IMG/VR virus record: IMGVR_UViG_3300025818_000241
Location: 1 to 20,876 of that record
Reading direction: 5' to 3' (one strand)
Length of the DNA: 20,876 bases
From: a virus
Position numbers and translations under genes: made by a program. Under the pieces are notes generated by a model that was not told where the DNA came from, did no database searches, and saw only the letters and a program-made list of their open reading frames with translations. Numbering within the stretch: the stretch's first letter is position 1; each line of letters begins with the position of its first letter. Shown here piece after piece: positions 3,534 through 18,821 of this stretch.

Positions 3534-5003
3534 ATGTCGTCCAACCCACTCGAACCGTTTATCGAACGATACGGCGCACACCAAGGCGGCCTCGGTATTC
3601 TGCTGTTTGCCCACGAGATCCTCGGGATCACGATGGACAAGTGGCAGATCGATCTCCTGTTCCAGTTCGGGGAGGGGAACCGTGGTATCTCCGTCGCGGC
3701 CTGTCACGGGCCGGGTAAGACCGCGGCTGCCGCGGTGTGTATCGTGTACAGCTTGATTTTCAGGTTTCCGCTCCGGGCTGTAGCGACGGCGCCCTCTCGG
3801 GGGCAGATCGAGGGCGCGATGATGTCCGAGATCGTCAAGTGGATCTCCAAACTGCCCCCGGAGCTTGCGAACCTGCTCGAGGTCAAGTCGATGTCGGTCA
3901 CGCTCAAGGCGGCACCGAAGCGGAGCTACTTCGAGGCCCGTACGGCGCGTCCGGAGAACCCGGAGGCGCTACAGGGCATCCACGAGGATGAGGGCTACGT
4001 CTTCCTGCTCGTGGACGAGGCTTCTGGTGTACACGAGAAGATCTTCGAGTCCGCCGGTGGGTCCATGTCCGGTGAGAACTGCCAGACGATGCTCCTGTCG
4101 AACCCGACTCGGACGTCCGGGTTCTTCTTCGATACGCACCACAAGGACGCGGACAACTGGTTCACGATCAAGATCTCCCACGCGGACTCCACGCGCGTCA
4201 CGGACGCGTTCGTGGAGGAGATGCGGCGCCGGTACGGGGAAGACTCGAACACGTTCAGGGTTCGTGCCCTGGGGCAGTTCCCCCGTTCCGACTTGGACGC
4301 TCTCATCCCGTTCGAAGTCGTACAGGCCTCCCGGGAACGCGACATCCATGTCCCGAAGCACCTCTCGGAGGTCTGGGGCGTCGACGTCGCGCGTTTTGGG
4401 GACGACAGCACGGTCGTGGTCCGCCGGAACAACATCGCGGTGTCCCCGGACATCAAGGTCTGGGACCAACTCGACACGATGGCGACGTCCAACCGTATCC
4501 TGCGGCTCTACAAGGACACTCCGGACTCTCAGAAGCCCGAAGAGATCCTCGTGGATGTCATCGGCATGGGCGCAGCCGTCGTGGACCGTCTGAGCGAACT
4601 GGGCCTGCCTGTGAGGGGCATCAACGTCGCCGAGACGTCGTCCTTCAGCGAGACGTACCGGAATCTGCGTACGGAACTCTGGTTCGAGGCCCGGCAGTGG
4701 CTCGAGAGCCGGGATCACGTACTCCCGAACTGCGACGGCACGTGTCGGGACCGGTTGACCTGCGTCCACGAGCGTCTGGCCGCAGAATTGACGACCCTGA
4801 AGTACGATGTGACCTCCGGGGGGAAATTCCTCGCGGAGTCGAAGCGGGATCTGAAGAAACGGGGGTACAAGAGCCCCGACATCGCGGATGCGTTCGTGCT
4901 GACCTTCGCCGGCGCCCCCGCGACTCTGATACATGGCTCGAACGACGGCTGGGGCGCCTTCGGGTGGAATCAGCCCATTTCACGTAACAGGATGGTGGTG
5001 TGA
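3534..5003 (+). CDS. terL: Terminase large subunit (DNA-packaging ATPase and nuclease)
   Basis: This is the packaging motor: an ATPase that pumps DNA through the portal and a nuclease that cuts the concatemer. In its 489 residues the ATPase domain shows a Walker A at 58-63 (HGPGKT), a Walker B at 157-162 (FLLVDE) and a coupling motif SNPTR at 189-193. The RNase H-like nuclease domain begins WGVDVARFGDD at 281-291, with acidic residues at D284, D341 (LVDVIG) and the DIADAF motif at 449-454. Length and order fit the family. Residues 400-412 hold three Cys and a His in a loop not usual in the family. The ATG directly follows the stop of the spike-base gene. No small terminase is recognisable in the window. 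The product acts at the portal vertex. Confidence 0.96.
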   Translation: MSSNPLEPFIERYGAHQGGLGILLFAHEILGITMDKWQIDLLFQFGEGNRGISVAACHGPGKTAAAAVCIVYSLIFRFPLRAVATAPSRGQIEGAMMSEIVKWISKLPPELANLLEVKSMSVTLKAAPKRSYFEARTARPENPEALQGIHEDEGYVFLLVDEASGVHEKIFESAGGSMSGENCQTMLLSNPTRTSGFFFDTHHKDADNWFTIKISHADSTRVTDAFVEEMRRRYGEDSNTFRVRALGQFPRSDLDALIPFEVVQASRERDIHVPKHLSEVWGVDVARFGDDSTVVVRRNNIAVSPDIKVWDQLDTMATSNRILRLYKDTPDSQKPEEILVDVIGMGAAVVDRLSELGLPVRGINVAETSSFSETYRNLRTELWFEARQWLESRDHVLPNCDGTCRDRLTCVHERLAAELTTLKYDVTSGGKFLAESKRDLKKRGYKSPDIADAFVLTFAGAPATLIHGSNDGWGAFGWNQPISRNRMVV

Positions 5004-8562: not shown

Positions 8563-9543
8563 ATGGCTCTCGTTTCAGGTACCGCCACGCGGTACGACAT
8601 GAACGGCCTGCGGGAATCCCTGCATGACCGTATCTACGACATCTCCCCCGAGGAGACCCCTTTCATCATGGGCGCCGGACGTGGCCCGAACGCGAAACAG
8701 ACGCTCGAAGAGTGGCAGACTGACTCGCTCGCGGCTGCCGACGGCACGAACGCGCAGCTTGAAGGTGACGACGCTTCGTTCAGCACGCCTGCCGCGACGA
8801 CCCGTGTAGGTAACTACACGCAGATCATGCGGAAGACGCTGATCCTGTCCGACACGCTCGAGCAGGTTGACAAGGCTGGTCGCCGCAGCGAGCTCGCCTA
8901 TCAGCTTGCAAAGCGTGGCTCGGAGCTCAAGCGTGACCTCGAGACGGTCCTTCTCCGCGCACAGGGTGGTGCCGCCGGTGGAACGGGTACGGCTCGTACG
9001 CTCGCCGGTCTGAACGCTTGGCTCAAGTCCAACACCAACTTCTACACCACCGACGGTGCTGACCCGACGTACACGTCCGGTGTTCCGAGTGCGGCGCGTA
9101 CGGACGGTGGAACGCTCCGCGCGTTCACCGAGACGATCGCCAAGGACGTCATCCAGAGCGGGTGGACGAACGGTGCGAACTTCTCGACGCTGATGGTCGG
9201 TCCGGTCAACAAGCAGCGGGTCTCGACGGACTTCGCCGGTATCGCGACGCGGAACTACGATCTGTCGAACGTAGCCGCGAAGCCTATGGCCGCGATCGCT
9301 TCGATCGACGTCTACGTGTCCGACTTCGGGGTGCTCCGGGTCGTCCCGAACCGCTTCCAGCGTGAGCGGGATGCTTGGTTCATCGACTGGGAGTATGTCG
9401 AGCTTCGCTACCTGCGTCCGCTCCAGCAGACCAAGCTGGCGAAGACTGGTGACGCTGAGAAGCGTATGATGGTTCAGGAAGTTACGCTTTGTGTGAAGCA
9501 GGAAGCTGCGCTCGGCGCCGCTTTCGATCTCACCACGACTTGA
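8563..9543 (+). CDS. Major capsid protein, SU10-like (DUF5309) type
   Basis: This is the shell-forming HK97-fold protein. The 326 residues open with ATRYDMNGLRESLHDRIYDI, followed by SPEETPFIM and the TLEEWQTDSLAA segment, which I recognise as the start of the SU10 / DUF5309 capsid family. The helix QLAKRGSELKRDLETVLLRAQ (spine-helix region) and the stretch FGVLRVVPNRFQRERDAWFID also fit. The last part contains the WEYVELRYLRPLQQTKLAKTGD segment, usual in this family. Mature protein is expected to be found in many copies per head. It follows the scaffold with a 33-base gap and a strong AGAAGGAACAG purine tract before the ATG. A hairpin follows the stop. Confidence 0.93.
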   Translation: MALVSGTATRYDMNGLRESLHDRIYDISPEETPFIMGAGRGPNAKQTLEEWQTDSLAAADGTNAQLEGDDASFSTPAATTRVGNYTQIMRKTLILSDTLEQVDKAGRRSELAYQLAKRGSELKRDLETVLLRAQGGAAGGTGTARTLAGLNAWLKSNTNFYTTDGADPTYTSGVPSAARTDGGTLRAFTETIAKDVIQSGWTNGANFSTLMVGPVNKQRVSTDFAGIATRNYDLSNVAAKPMAAIASIDVYVSDFGVLRVVPNRFQRERDAWFIDWEYVELRYLRPLQQTKLAKTGDAEKRMMVQEVTLCVKQEAALGAAFDLTTT

Positions 9544-9551
9544 TCGGGCTA

Positions 9552-9591
9552 GGTGGGGTGTTCACGGTTCATGGATCGTGAACACCTCACC
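9552..9591 (+). terminator. Long hairpin after the capsid gene, possible attenuator or terminator
   Basis: Positions 9552-9566 pair with 9577-9591 to give a 15-base-pair stem (14 Watson-Crick pairs and one G-U) closing a 10-base loop. It lies 8 bases after the capsid stop and ends 22 bases before the next ATG. No T-run follows, so a simple intrinsic terminator is doubtful; it could instead stabilise the capsid transcript or reduce readthrough. Confidence 0.55.
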
Positions 9592-9613
9592 GACGCTTCT
9601 ATAGGAGAGAAAT

Positions 9614-10135
9614 ATGGCGGTAGATACTACGCTCGTAAGAGCTAGTCAGACGATCACGCTGGACGCGGCTGGAGAGGCCACCGACGGCGAGACCATCGTC
9701 ATCGGTAGCAAGACGTACACGTTCCGCGCAACGGTTGGTGCGCTCGACGGTTCGGTTCATATCGGAGCGGCTGTTGCCGACACGGTGGACAACCTCGTCG
9801 CGGCTATCAACCTCGACGCATCCGAAGGTGAGACGGGTTCCGGCGCCGGTACGGATTATGGCACGGCCATGACCCGCAATCCGGATGTATACGCGACTCG
9901 CGTGGCTGCTACGGGTGTCATCACCCTGCGGGCGCACATTCCGGGCAGTATCGGGAACCATATCGTTCTCGGGCAGGGCACCAGCACGATCACGCTGGGT
10001 GGTTCTACGCTGGCTTCGGGGACGGGCAATATTGGAGACTTCTTCGACGGGTTCTTTGAACTGAACCAGCTTAACTCGGAGGTCGTTGCGGCTCTCCGAC
10101 CGTTCTCTGCCGTCGAAGGCGGCAAGCTCGACTAA
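9614..10135 (+). CDS. Probable head decoration or head-associated beta protein
   Basis: The 173-residue product follows the major capsid gene and has a strong Shine-Dalgarno (ataggagagaaat) before its ATG. Residues about 20-75 follow a module that recurs in phage virion proteins: a DGETIVIGSKTYTFRA hairpin, then a gap, then TVDNLVAAINLD. A second beta part (YATRVAATGVITLRAHIPG, NHIVLGQGTST) precedes a C-terminal tail with FFDGFFELNQLNSEVV. Its position and hairpin-framed expression suggest a protein needed in large amounts, such as a decoration or cement protein. The module also occurs in tail proteins, so the exact place on the virion is uncertain. Confidence 0.72.
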   Translation: MAVDTTLVRASQTITLDAAGEATDGETIVIGSKTYTFRATVGALDGSVHIGAAVADTVDNLVAAINLDASEGETGSGAGTDYGTAMTRNPDVYATRVAATGVITLRAHIPGSIGNHIVLGQGTSTITLGGSTLASGTGNIGDFFDGFFELNQLNSEVVAALRPFSAVEGGKLD

Positions 10136-10153
10136 GCACCCATACGATGATAT

Positions 10154-10214
10154 GTGAGCCGGGGGCAGGGTTTGTGTGGGGCCCGTGCGGTTGCCCCCGG
10201 TCTCACTCCACACA
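10154..10214 (+). promoter_or_regulatory. Strong RNA hairpin with alternative or pseudoknot pairing before the 106-residue gene
   Basis: Positions 10154-10158 pair with 10202-10206, and 10159-10167 with 10192-10200; one T (10201) bulges, making 14 Watson-Crick pairs plus a possible G-U at 10168/10191. Inside the loop, 10173-10180 is complementary to 10207-10214 (seven Watson-Crick pairs plus a G-U). The second pairing begins immediately after the first stem and ends one base before the GAGGG ribosome site at 10216-10220. Both pairings together would be a pseudoknot, but with no linker the full first stem would strain it, so alternative folds are as likely. No T-run follows, which speaks against a simple terminator. 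Confidence 0.5.
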
Positions 10215-10225
10215 CGAGGGACAGT

Positions 10226-10546
10226 ATGCCTAGCATTAGACTACAGTCGGATCCGATTCGGAAGAAGACTACAACGATGCACATCGACCGAGGCGCGGAG
10301 GGTTACGTTCTCGAGTCGAAACAAGATGTGACCGACATCATCGAGCGAAACAAGGCTCGTATGGCGTTGGTCGATGAAAACGCTGGGTGGAATGAGTGGG
10401 CACAAGTGGCTGAGATCCCAGTCGAGGTCTGGTACAACCACCTCGTCCCTTCAGGTATCGCCAACGACGAAACCCGTCTGCGGAAGTGGCTCGACGACCG
10501 GGACAACCTCCTATTCCGGACTCGTCCGGGGCGGATGTCGAAATGA
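10226..10546 (+). CDS. Conserved small podovirus protein next to the head genes, function unknown
   Basis: I choose ATG 10226, with GAGGG at 10216-10220, over the GTG at 10154, which lies inside the hairpin and would add 24 residues of unlike composition. The 106-residue product starts with basic beta segments (IRLQSDPIRKKTTTMHIDR), continues with a helix (QDVTDIIERNKARMALVDE) and ends with WLDDRDNLLFRTRPGRMSK. I recognise the ending pattern, a helix, then WL.D.DN..FRTRPG, from small proteins in the structural block of many podoviruses, where the role is not known. It overlaps the glycosyltransferase gene by four bases (ATGA), so the two are probably co-translated. Confidence 0.8.
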   Translation: MPSIRLQSDPIRKKTTTMHIDRGAEGYVLESKQDVTDIIERNKARMALVDENAGWNEWAQVAEIPVEVWYNHLVPSGIANDETRLRKWLDDRDNLLFRTRPGRMSK

Positions 10547-11262
10547 GACAGCCCGGTTCCCCGATCAACATCGCGATCTGCGTCCCGACGCACCCTCGTG
10601 TCGAGGCCCTGTTCGCGTACGACCTCGCACAGATGATGGCCTTCACCGCCAGCGTGATGCCGGATTCCTGCGCGATCGGTCTCCATATGAACATCGGAAC
10701 TTATATCCACAAGTCCCGGACTGAAATCCTCCAAGACGCCCTCGCCGCCGGCGCCACCCACATCTTGTGGCTGGACTCGGACATGCGGTTCCCCAAGGAC
10801 ACGGCCATCCGCCTGCTCCAGCGGCAGGTGCCCTTTGTCGGGATCAACTACTCCAAGAGGCGGATGCCCCCGGAGTACGTCGCGATCAAGCGGGTACCTC
10901 GTGAAGGGGACGATCCGACGGATGGGGAACATCTGGCGACGACCGATGCTTCGACAGGGCTCGAAGAGGTCGATGTCCTCGGTTTCGGTGTGTTCATGAT
11001 GGACGCAACCGCACTGGTGAACCTCCCGGATCCTAATTATAATCCGTGGTTCTGGTTCGACAAGACGGAGCATGGAGCCGAGATCGGCGAGGACGCCTAT
11101 TTCTGCCTCAAGATCGTACAGGATCACCTGAATCAGCGGATCTTCTGCGACCATGATCTGTCCAAAGAATGTGGACATATCGGGAACTTCGAGTACAAGC
11201 TTTACCATGCGGAGGCGACAGCCGAGGCACGGAAGGAGTTAGAGGATGGCGCTGGTCACTGA
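10543..11262 (+). CDS. Phage glycosyltransferase, GT-A-like
   Basis: The product, 239 residues from ATG 10543 (ATGA overlap with the gene before), transfers a sugar from a nucleotide donor if the family assignment holds. It opens with INIAICVPTHPRVEALFAYDL, the first nucleotide-binding strand and helix of a GT-A fold. Residues 73-84 (HILWLDSDMRFP) hold the acidic metal-binding DSD at 78-80. FVGINYSKRR follows at 98-107. The C-terminal part has GEDAYFCLKI, where the acidic residue is a candidate base, and the ending CDHDLSKECGHIG, a pattern typical of phage-encoded transferases of this kind. It is set between the small head-side gene and the adaptor, and overlaps the latter by 17 bases. The acceptor, capsid protein or host glycan, is unknown. 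Confidence 0.85.
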   Translation: MRQPGSPINIAICVPTHPRVEALFAYDLAQMMAFTASVMPDSCAIGLHMNIGTYIHKSRTEILQDALAAGATHILWLDSDMRFPKDTAIRLLQRQVPFVGINYSKRRMPPEYVAIKRVPREGDDPTDGEHLATTDASTGLEEVDVLGFGVFMMDATALVNLPDPNYNPWFWFDKTEHGAEIGEDAYFCLKIVQDHLNQRIFCDHDLSKECGHIGNFEYKLYHAEATAEARKELEDGAGH

Positions 11263-13198: not shown

Positions 13199-13612
13199 AT
13201 GGACATTCTCGGAAAAGTCGGTGAGTTGCTAGGTGGGGCCTTCGGCCTCGTCGACGATCTGCACACCTCGGACGAAGAAAAGCTCACCCTGAAGACCGGC
13301 CTGCTGACGATTCAGACAGCCGTAGTCTCGGAGGTCATCCAAGCGCAGTCGAAGATGGCCGAGATGCAGTCGAACATCATCGTGGCGGAAGCTAAGAGCA
13401 CGCATCCGTTGACATCCATGTGGCGTCCGATCACGATGCTCACGTTCGTTGTCATCATCGTCCTCGCCCAGTTCGGGGTCACCGGGCCAGTCCCGGAGGA
13501 CATGTGGCCCTTGCTGAAGCTAGGACTTGGTGGGTACGTGATTGGCCGCTCATTCGAAAAGACGGTCCCCAACGTCCTGTCTTCATTGAAATCGGAGGAG
13601 CGAGTCCAGTGA
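13199..13612 (+). CDS. Holin, 3TM family as in gene transfer agents
   Basis: The 137 residues match the pattern of the Holin_3TMs family: a cytoplasmic helical N-terminal part (KVGELLGGAFGLVDDL), then a membrane-proximal WRPI motif at 75-78 (SMWRPITMLTFVVIIVLA), a hydrophobic segment at 78-94 and a second at about 105-118 (LGLGGYVIGRSFEKTV), and a short polar end. The WRP motif with the following hydrophobic run is the hallmark of this family, used by the Rhodobacter gene transfer agent and many phages to breach the inner membrane. It directly precedes the endolysin with a GTGA overlap, so the pair is likely translated together. Of the three membrane proteins this is the best holin candidate. 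Confidence 0.85.
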   Translation: MDILGKVGELLGGAFGLVDDLHTSDEEKLTLKTGLLTIQTAVVSEVIQAQSKMAEMQSNIIVAEAKSTHPLTSMWRPITMLTFVVIIVLAQFGVTGPVPEDMWPLLKLGLGGYVIGRSFEKTVPNVLSSLKSEERVQ

Positions 13613-16888: not shown

Positions 16889-17268
16889 GGTACATCGCTT
16901 TCAATGGAGAGGGTGACGAGCCTACATTCCGGTCCTCCGTGGAACGGGCCTTCGGCGAGATCGAACTGTTGGAGGTGCCGGTCATCCTCCCGCGGATCAC
17001 CATCACCGACCAAGATGCGACCCCCACAGTGGACGGGTACGCCTACCTCGTCACCGCGAACACTGTCGCCACCACGATCACGGACTTCGATGATGGTGTT
17101 GTGGGGCAGGAAATTGTGGTCGAGATCGGCGATGCCAATACTACAGTGGACTTCACCGCGAGCGGGTTGAAAGGGAACGCGGGCGTCGACTGGACTCCGG
17201 GCTCCGGAGACTTCATGCGCTGTATATACAACGGGACAGAATGGCTCTGTTCCGTACACGAAATCTAG
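16885..17268 (+). CDS. Small fibre-type beta-domain protein
   Basis: The GTG at 16885 overlaps the nozzle stop (GTGA) and has GGAGG eight bases upstream, inside the end of the nozzle gene. The 127-residue product has a short N-terminal linker and then a beta module (TPTVDGYAYLVTANTVA, TITDFDDGVVGQEIVVEIGD, GVDWTPGSGDFMRCIYNGTEW) that recurs at the ends of phage tail fibres, where it can be the distal or oligomerising part. The order of strands resembles that of the fibre at 11876-12400. It sits between nozzle and tailspike and may link the spike to the tail or act as a small fibre. A Cys pair (RCIY, WLCS) is near the end. Confidence 0.75.
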   Translation: MRYIAFNGEGDEPTFRSSVERAFGEIELLEVPVILPRITITDQDATPTVDGYAYLVTANTVATTITDFDDGVVGQEIVVEIGDANTTVDFTASGLKGNAGVDWTPGSGDFMRCIYNGTEWLCSVHEI

Positions 17269-17276
17269 GGAAGACG

Positions 17277-18821
17277 ATGGCAGATACTGATCTCGGGATT
17301 ATCCGTACGGACACTGGTCGTTTCGTAGACAAAGGCAACCGTGTCTTCAACGTCAAACACCCGGACTTCGACGGCGGCGCGAAAGGTGACGGTAGCACAG
17401 ACGACACCCTCGCCATTCAGGCCGCGTTCGACCGTGTCCCTTCCGGTGCGGTCGTGTACTTCCCCCGGGGCACGTACAAGATCACGGACACCCTGTCGGT
17501 CGCGACGAGCATGACCATCACCGGCGACGGTGTGGCTTCTGTCGTGCGACAGGACGGCAGCAACAAGGCCGGGTTCTCGGTGTCCGTCAGCGACGTCACC
17601 GTTCGGGACATCAAGTTGCAGGGGCCTCAGTTCGCGACATCACAGTCGAACGAGAGGGCGATCTACGCGCTCGGGGGAAGCTCCTCCGCGTACATCAACC
17701 ACCTGCGGGTGGAGAACTGCGAGATCATCAACTGGGGCCGGTTCGGTATCTTCATGGAGTTCGTGGAGGACTTCTTCATCACCGGGAACCATGTCGAGGA
17801 CGTCCTGTACGGGGGCATCTTCGGACAGTCCGTGCGACGCGGGGTGATCTCCGGGAACCGTGTGGAGAACATCCCCAACACTGGCGAAAGCTACGGGATC
17901 TCGTTGACCCGGCAGGGTGTCGCGAGTCTCTCGACCCACCCGCGTAGCAGTGATGTGACCGTGGATGGGAACGTGCTCCAGAACATCACCGGGAAAACCG
18001 GACTGGACACCCACGCCGGTGAACGTATCGTCTTCTCCAACAACACGGTCCGCGGCTGCTATTGGGGCATCAACATCGGCCCTGCGACGAACGGGGTGAG
18101 CCCGACCTACGCGCCGCACGCCTGTGTCGTCACCGGGAACGTCGTCGACTCCAACAGGGAGTCGGTCCACGTTCAGGGGATGCAGTTGGCGGGCGCCGGT
18201 ACGTTGACCGAGGCCGCGTCCGGATGCATCGTGTCCGGGAACGTCTTCTGGGAGTGCGGCGGGGACAACAGTGGTTCCGCGGCGAGCAACACTAGCCGTT
18301 GTCTCGACGTCGGCGCGACGGAAAGCTGCGTGATCGAGGGGAACGTCTTCGTCCGTCCGAGTCGCCAAGGGATCCTTCTGTCGGCGAACAACGAGAGCTT
18401 GGTGATCGCGAACAACACGTTCGTGGATGTCTGGGAGTCGACGGGCACCGGCAACGCGAACGCGATCATGGCGAACGGGAACAACAACAATGTCCTCATC
18501 CATGGGAACCGTTTCGAGACGGATCCGAACTACACGAACGCCTCGTTCGCTCTCACGGCGAGCCGGCGGTCGTACATCGGGGTCCGGACTACCGCATCGA
18601 CGGGCATGGACATCAAGGTCCTCGGCAACCTGTTCGACACCTCCGGTGCGGACATGTTGGAGGACACTTCAGGTACGATCACTTCACTGGGAGACAGAGT
18701 GAGCGCCCCCGGGTCGGCTTCGGCCACCGGGTTCGCGGGACAGTGGGCTTCGGACGGAAGCTACTACTACGCCTGTACGGGGGTGGACACATGGCTACGC
18801 GTAGCCATCGCCACGTGGTAA
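17277..18821 (+). CDS. Tailspike with right-handed beta-helix, pectate-lyase-like
   Basis: I choose ATG 17277, with AGGGAAG just upstream, over an in-frame ATG at 17241 inside the gene before. The 514 residues start with a linker and then KHPDFDGGAKGDGSTDDTLA (about 27-46), the mark of pectate-lyase_3-type beta-helix tailspikes. FDRVPSGAVVYFPRGTYKI follows. From about 85 to 460 run repeated rungs with G-N endings (ITGNHVED, ISGNRVEN, VSGNVFWE, IEGNVFVRP, LIHGNRFE). The last 39 residues (FAGQWASDGSYYYACTG, then VDTWLRVAIATW) are a small C-terminal module common in fibres and spikes. It likely binds and cuts surface polysaccharide; the active site cannot be placed. Confidence 0.92.
   Translation: MADTDLGIIRTDTGRFVDKGNRVFNVKHPDFDGGAKGDGSTDDTLAIQAAFDRVPSGAVVYFPRGTYKITDTLSVATSMTITGDGVASVVRQDGSNKAGFSVSVSDVTVRDIKLQGPQFATSQSNERAIYALGGSSSAYINHLRVENCEIINWGRFGIFMEFVEDFFITGNHVEDVLYGGIFGQSVRRGVISGNRVENIPNTGESYGISLTRQGVASLSTHPRSSDVTVDGNVLQNITGKTGLDTHAGERIVFSNNTVRGCYWGINIGPATNGVSPTYAPHACVVTGNVVDSNRESVHVQGMQLAGAGTLTEAASGCIVSGNVFWECGGDNSGSAASNTSRCLDVGATESCVIEGNVFVRPSRQGILLSANNESLVIANNTFVDVWESTGTGNANAIMANGNNNNVLIHGNRFETDPNYTNASFALTASRRSYIGVRTTASTGMDIKVLGNLFDTSGADMLEDTSGTITSLGDRVSAPGSASATGFAGQWASDGSYYYACTGVDTWLRVAIATW

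Follow-up and report, generated by a model that had tools for sequence, protein, structure and literature searches.

A stem, an invariant loop and a tail complementary to that loop are conserved on the sense strand, at a gene of the phrog_3982 family, in a clade of uncultured phages represented here by the IMG/VR virus record IMGVR_UViG_3300025818_000241, of which positions 1 to 20,876 were analysed (20,876 nucleotides, hereafter the window). The element constitutes a new RNA family of a known kind, the pseudoknotted translational leader, an assignment made on a stem conserved through compensatory change and on a loop-tail pairing kept with one-sided changes only. While its structure as RNA is well supported, its position and sequence suggest a regulatory role, and it is probably, in our judgement, a cis-acting sense-strand leader that controls translation of the phrog_3982 gene and of the glycosyltransferase-like gene that follows it. 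To our knowledge, few conserved cis-acting RNA structures have been documented in the structural blocks of tailed phages beyond the model phages.

In the window (Table 1), a base-level check found the 14 pairs of the main stem, P1, with T10201 bulged and a loop complementary to the bases that follow the stem, exactly as the first-pass annotation had described them; its placing of the end of the second pairing one base before the GAGGG ribosome site was equally exact, the separating base being C10215. This second pairing, P3, joins TGTGTGGG with TCCACACA through eight pairs, the last of which (G10180 with T10207) is a G-U pair. A small inner stem that had gone unnamed, P2 (GGG/CCC), closes the 11-base loop, and its counterparts were read by eye as GGAG/CTCC in locus L008 and GGAGG/CCTCC in L007.

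Table 1. Features of the element and of adjoining genes in the window.
Feature	Position	Strand	Basis or remark
173-aa gene	9614-10135		precedes the element in the window; no PHROG or Pfam match
P1, 5' strand, GTGAGCCGGGGGCA	10154..10167	+	sequence; covarying in relatives
P2, 5' strand, GGG	10168..10170	+	model-based alignment A5, 93.3% of cells paired
Loop, TTTGTGTGGGG	10171..10181	+	holds the 5' half of P3, TGTGTGGG, at 10173-10180
P2, 3' strand, CCC	10182..10184	+	alignment A5
Joining segment, GTGCGGT	10185..10191	+	partly conserved; absent from L007 and L009 (read by eye)
P1, 3' strand, TGCCCCCGG (10192-10200) and CTCAC (10202-10206), T10201 bulged	10192..10206	+	sequence; relatives
CA-rich tail, TCCACACA	10207..10214	+	3' half of P3; complementary to the loop
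Shine-Dalgarno, GAGGG	10216..10220	+	sequence
106-aa gene, phrog_3982 (function unknown), ATG at 10226	10226..10546	+	E 3e-14, window protein only
239-aa glycosyltransferase-like gene	10543..11262	+	begins within the last bases of the 106-aa gene

A scan of viral contigs with the capsid protein returned 212 relatives, the best 80 loci of which were kept. The element was found by model search in 12 of these 80 loci (L001-L005 and L007-L013), which are 12 of the 13 IMG/VR loci with capsid identity of at least 61%; the thirteenth, L006, lies on a contig that stops within the capsid gene, and all 12 that reach the site carry the element. Together with the window, the carriers amount to 13 rows, 10 distinct sequences and, once the window is merged with L002, 9 lineages. 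The remaining 67 of the 80 loci gave no model match, including L014-L016 (59-60% capsid identity), some of them ending before the site. Among 99 further loci the sole match was L084, which is the L013 contig again, and 82 more produced chance-level matches only (best L284, E 0.25, and L287, E 0.71). When 11 whole virus records were searched, eight each contained a single strong match (E 1e-8 or better), five weak extra matches (E 0.03 to 0.6) being spread over four of these eight, and the whole records of L015, L016 and L083 held no element match. Scans of viral contigs for the loop pattern yielded 16 stretches with L002, L167, L173 and L175 (known records) as the only members, then 6 stretches, all but L176 in known records, and then 14 stretches with the lone member L178 (the record of L005); the same kind of scan of genome contigs gave 11 stretches with no member by inspection or model. 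No member was found outside the clade in the viral and genome contigs scanned, and the element is, as far as sampled, clade-specific and present in one copy per phage.

Because the first model, R1, was built from sequences that it then found, its E-values are circular, and the held-out test was made with a second model, R2, of five sequences. In a search space of 325,617 bases from 37 loci, the held-out L009, L011, L003, L007 and L013 took the top five ranks at the correct sites (E 1e-6 to 0.03). With regard to known families, Rfam 15 at the gathering threshold gave no match in the window and none around the element in seven loci, and a relaxed Rfam search returned only MEG8_1 and mir-9201, far under threshold. 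Likewise, blastn of the element against 50,697 named phage records found no match, and no paper naming it was found in the open-licence literature searched. The element is of interest as a small RNA structure, absent from Rfam 15, that is supported by covariation in uncultured phages.

The single-sequence fold is unexceptional (MFE -38.1 versus -36.4 for shuffles, sd 3.7, z -0.47; 55 of 200 shuffles fold equally well); that is, the fold alone is ordinary for such a GC-rich sequence and is more than chance only by comparison. On alignment A5, which leans to the model and in which the rows of L005, L007, L009 and L013 are partly out of register, lowering the paired percentage (75.6%), both-sided changes occur in 9 of 17 pairs (shuffle mean 4.8, with 9 reached by 3 of 500 shuffles), and the covariation score of 0.238 is reached by none of 500. 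A weaker measure on A5, further pair types, is reached by 87 of 500 shuffles, and every measure drops when the partner strand is slid along the alignment. In a hand alignment with bulges placed by hand, compensation is seen in 8 of the 14 P1 columns. The comparison of own with foreign stem halves depends little on alignment and thus avoids the model bias and register faults of A5. In six diverged lineages, chosen so as to drop close relatives, the own pairing ranks first among all 720 permutations, and with all nine lineages it is reached by 1 of 20,000 random permutations; within the close group (the window, L004, L008 and L009) foreign halves pair about as well as own ones.

This structure belongs to one strand. 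In all nine lineages the sense strand has the more stable fold (sum -323 versus -241 for the antisense strand) and forms 3-7 G-U pairs, compared with 0-1 on the antisense strand, which speaks against an inverted repeat acting at the DNA level in packaging, replication or protein binding. A coding stretch, either an N-terminal extension of the 106-aa protein or a leader peptide, has in its favour that, in the window, the 106-aa frame continues open upstream as far as a GTG at 10154 and that the loop, which would read LCG, keeps a constant frame with respect to the start codon in seven of nine lineages. However, L009 and L011 have the loop in another frame, stop codons come in frame after the loop in L003, L004, L005, L007 and L008, and the invariant bases include third codon positions. 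On the strength of the strand asymmetry, the differing frames and the stops, the DNA palindrome and the coding stretch were both rejected, and we regard them as hardly credible.

Across the nine lineages TGTGTGGG is invariant while the stems drift; at capsid fourfold sites of the same lineages, 2 of 84 shared sites are invariant and identity to the window is 38-51%. The complementarity between loop and tail is kept in all nine, with a summed duplex energy of -133.7 against -77.6 (sd 6.3) for shuffles, a value reached by none of 2000, for hand-chosen loops and tails and shuffles that preserve single-base composition only. Taken singly, the complementarity is reached by 0-74 of 2000 shuffles in eight lineages and is not significant in L003 (217 of 2000), where the tail sits well upstream of the start. 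The tails differ in length and flanks, and the tail changes of L004, L005 and L011 lead to G-U pairs and to no breaks; the tail of L011 is a perfect match for the joining segment GTGCGGT and needs a G-U pair to fit the loop (read by eye). The first-pass annotation had proposed looking for compensation in both pairings among relatives. Such compensation has been found for the stem; P3 displays no double-sided changes, only consistent one-sided (G-U) ones opposite an invariant loop, and because the loop never varies, pairing is not fully told apart from a separate constraint on each half. The broader idea of a structured RNA with a second, loop-to-tail pairing is nevertheless supported, as both are conserved in relatives that share the downstream gene. 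All 9 carriers have a CACA-type CA-rich motif in the 40 bases that precede the start, as does 1 of 20 element-free relatives (21 picked by hand, with L184 dropped as no start was found, and start codons chosen mechanically); a bare ACA is present in 5 of these 20 leaders. In L008, a second copy of the tail motif, CCCACATAG (4530-4538), is located upstream of the stem and could pair with the loop too.

The geometry of P3 divides the lineages into two groups. The linker between P1 and the tail is 0-1 nt in the window, L003, L008 and L009 (read by eye) and 8-9 nt in L004, L005, L007, L011 and L013, with no intermediate lengths. The first-pass annotation had regarded the full pseudoknot as strained for want of a linker, a remark that applies to the former four and is relaxed in the latter five. 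Judging from A-form length, a tail on a 0-1 nt linker would be unable to reach the loop with P1 fully closed, so that P3 would require melting of the five pairs beneath the bulge. For the window, the cost is about 8.5 kcal/mol to open the lower stem and about 4.4 to free the loop, and the loop-tail duplex returns -12.4 before any pseudoknot penalty; as the costs exceed the return, P3 would not win there unaided. In L008, which has the strongest loop-tail pairing (-20.5), P3 may win.

The genes around the element also inform its function. In the 12 loci and the window it is found just before phrog_3982, whose relatives were identified by alignment and position directly 3' of the element in carriers, and the glycosyltransferase-like gene then follows. 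The 239-aa product of the latter matches phrog_1574 (unknown function; E 1.9e-9) and is 41% identical to a protein of MW202711 annotated as 'putative glycosyltransferase'; a Pfam search of it gave no match. The 173-aa gene is missing in L002, L003, L004, L009, L010 and L012, in an apparent case of precise loss or gain between the capsid gene and the element; in L002 (5503-5585) and L010 it is reduced to its last bases. Since the element adjoins phrog_3982 with or without this gene, a role in setting the ratio of head proteins, which had been suggested at first, is unlikely. The other role suggested at first, translational control of the gene block with the glycosyltransferase, is plausible. 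Further downstream in the window, a GTA-type holin (13199-13612; PF11351, E 1e-12) and a right-handed beta-helix/pectate-lyase-like protein (17241-18821; PF13229, PF12708) are encoded.

The position after the capsid block raises the alternative that the long stem serves in processing or stability of the mRNA, either as an RNase III site or by blocking the 3' end, and in this way separates or protects the capsid transcript. Other structured RNAs occur at this place in distant relatives, namely hairpins read by eye in L189 and L246 and a tRNA in Sinorhizobium phage phiM5. On the other hand, such processing would leave the invariant loop and its matching tail unexplained, the element accompanies the downstream gene and not the capsid gene, and eight of nine lineages already have a separate hairpin, of 12-21 pairs, after the capsid stop; we consider this explanation unlikely. 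In the window, that separate hairpin (9552-9591) has 18 pairs and a 4-base loop and comes soon after the capsid stop codon; the one of L003 has a T-run nearby, and the longest in L011, the ninth lineage, has 6 pairs. The hairpins of L189 and L246 stand before phrog_3982 and are terminator-like, and three named records, more distant, have gaps of about 50 bases before their phrog_3982 relative. In phiM5 (L277, 4521-4595) the annotated tRNA-Met separates the capsid gene from the gene after it and does not directly precede the phrog_3982 relative, and in L215 a tRNA-like sequence was seen by eye just before the phrog_3982 gene. A tRNA/tmRNA search of the window found none.

A transcription attenuator or intrinsic terminator might also be imagined from the strong GC-rich stem, and 5 and 6 T were read by eye among the eight post-stem bases of L007 and L011, respectively. 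The other seven of nine lineages have at most 4, no T-run follows the stem in the window, and positions 9400-10400 of the window contain no terminator-like and no sigma-70-like site. The initial doubt about termination is thereby borne out, and termination was discarded as very improbable.

The translational leader that we favour could operate as follows. P1 and the small P2 would present the invariant GU-rich loop, which would pair reversibly with the CA-rich tract, a tract that abuts the Shine-Dalgarno in most carriers. When free, the tract would help loading of the 30S subunit; when paired, it would be part of a helix bordering the Shine-Dalgarno, and initiation would drop. In the window, with its short linker, loop-tail pairing would require opening of the five pairs below the bulged T, giving a bistable RNA, and in lineages with the 8-9 nt linker both pairings may coexist. 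In this scheme, formation of P3 in the cell, its action on translation and the repressive sign are all predicted from sequence. P3 leaves the Shine-Dalgarno itself uncovered, and by analogy with plasmid rep pseudoknots its formation could activate instead of repress. Initiation of translation is enhanced by ACA motifs and CA-rich elements near the ribosome site, and the GU-rich R1 region of the GcvB sRNA targets such ACA/CA-rich elements and represses (PMC3879156). A second hairpin that would hide the Shine-Dalgarno was also considered and rejected, as 103 of 1000 shuffles attain the summed energy of the nine tails; taken singly, L008 stands out in this respect (10 of 1000). In L003 (6107-6148), the tail CTACCCC can form 7 pairs with GGGGTAG just before the start codon, a possible lineage-specific block of the Shine-Dalgarno that 87 of 1000 shuffles fold equally well.

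Invariance of the loop while the stems drift would also be expected of a protein-bound operator, in which a protein of phage or host origin, perhaps the phrog_3982 product itself, binds loop and stem and represses or protects the transcript, the tail pairing shaping the site. A precedent exists in the pseudoknot operator 5' of the Shine-Dalgarno of T4 gene 32 (PMC535899). Nonetheless, the 106-aa protein has no RNA-binding family match in PHROG or Pfam, its structure model is poor (mean pLDDT 57), too poor for a structure search, and those phrog_3982 loci outside the clade that were searched with the model gave no match, and such an operator seems to us rather improbable. A more specific form of the translational leader, which we put forward tentatively, is a clade-specific phage switch whose GU-rich loop would mask a CA-rich enhancer in cis, in the manner of GcvB but built into the mRNA, with a ligand, a protein or the stage of infection opening or closing the loop, and with the lower stem and the loop-tail pairing as the two states of a bistable RNA. 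If the proposed mechanism is true, leader pseudoknots and CA-rich translation enhancers would be joined in one device.

Several known systems resemble the element in part. The rep leaders of IncI-alpha/IncB plasmids, such as that of repZ in ColIb-P9, are pseudoknot switches for translation, in which a hairpin loop pairs just upstream of the Shine-Dalgarno; there the pairing turns translation on, and an antisense RNA is a competitor for the loop. The element shares with them a hairpin loop that can pair with the bases immediately before the Shine-Dalgarno, but the sequences and the genes differ, the downstream gene here being phrog_3982 in a phage structural block and no replication initiator. 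Another example is T4 gene 32, where the leader of a phage mRNA likewise has a pseudoknot 5' of the Shine-Dalgarno of its presumed target gene; the T4 pseudoknot, to which gp32 binds, spans about 28 nt and precedes a stretch of more than 40 nt that is less structured and contains UUAAA repeats (PMC535899). In contrast, the window has a 14-pair stem and a loop that can pair with a CA-rich tract that abuts the Shine-Dalgarno, its leader has no UUAAA/UAAA repeats, and the downstream gene is phrog_3982 and not one for a single-strand-binding protein. Finally, the element resembles GcvB in matching a GU-rich RNA to a CA/ACA-rich tract next to the ribosome site; GcvB is a separate sRNA of enteric bacteria (PMC3879156), whereas in the element the GU-rich partner would sit in the same mRNA.
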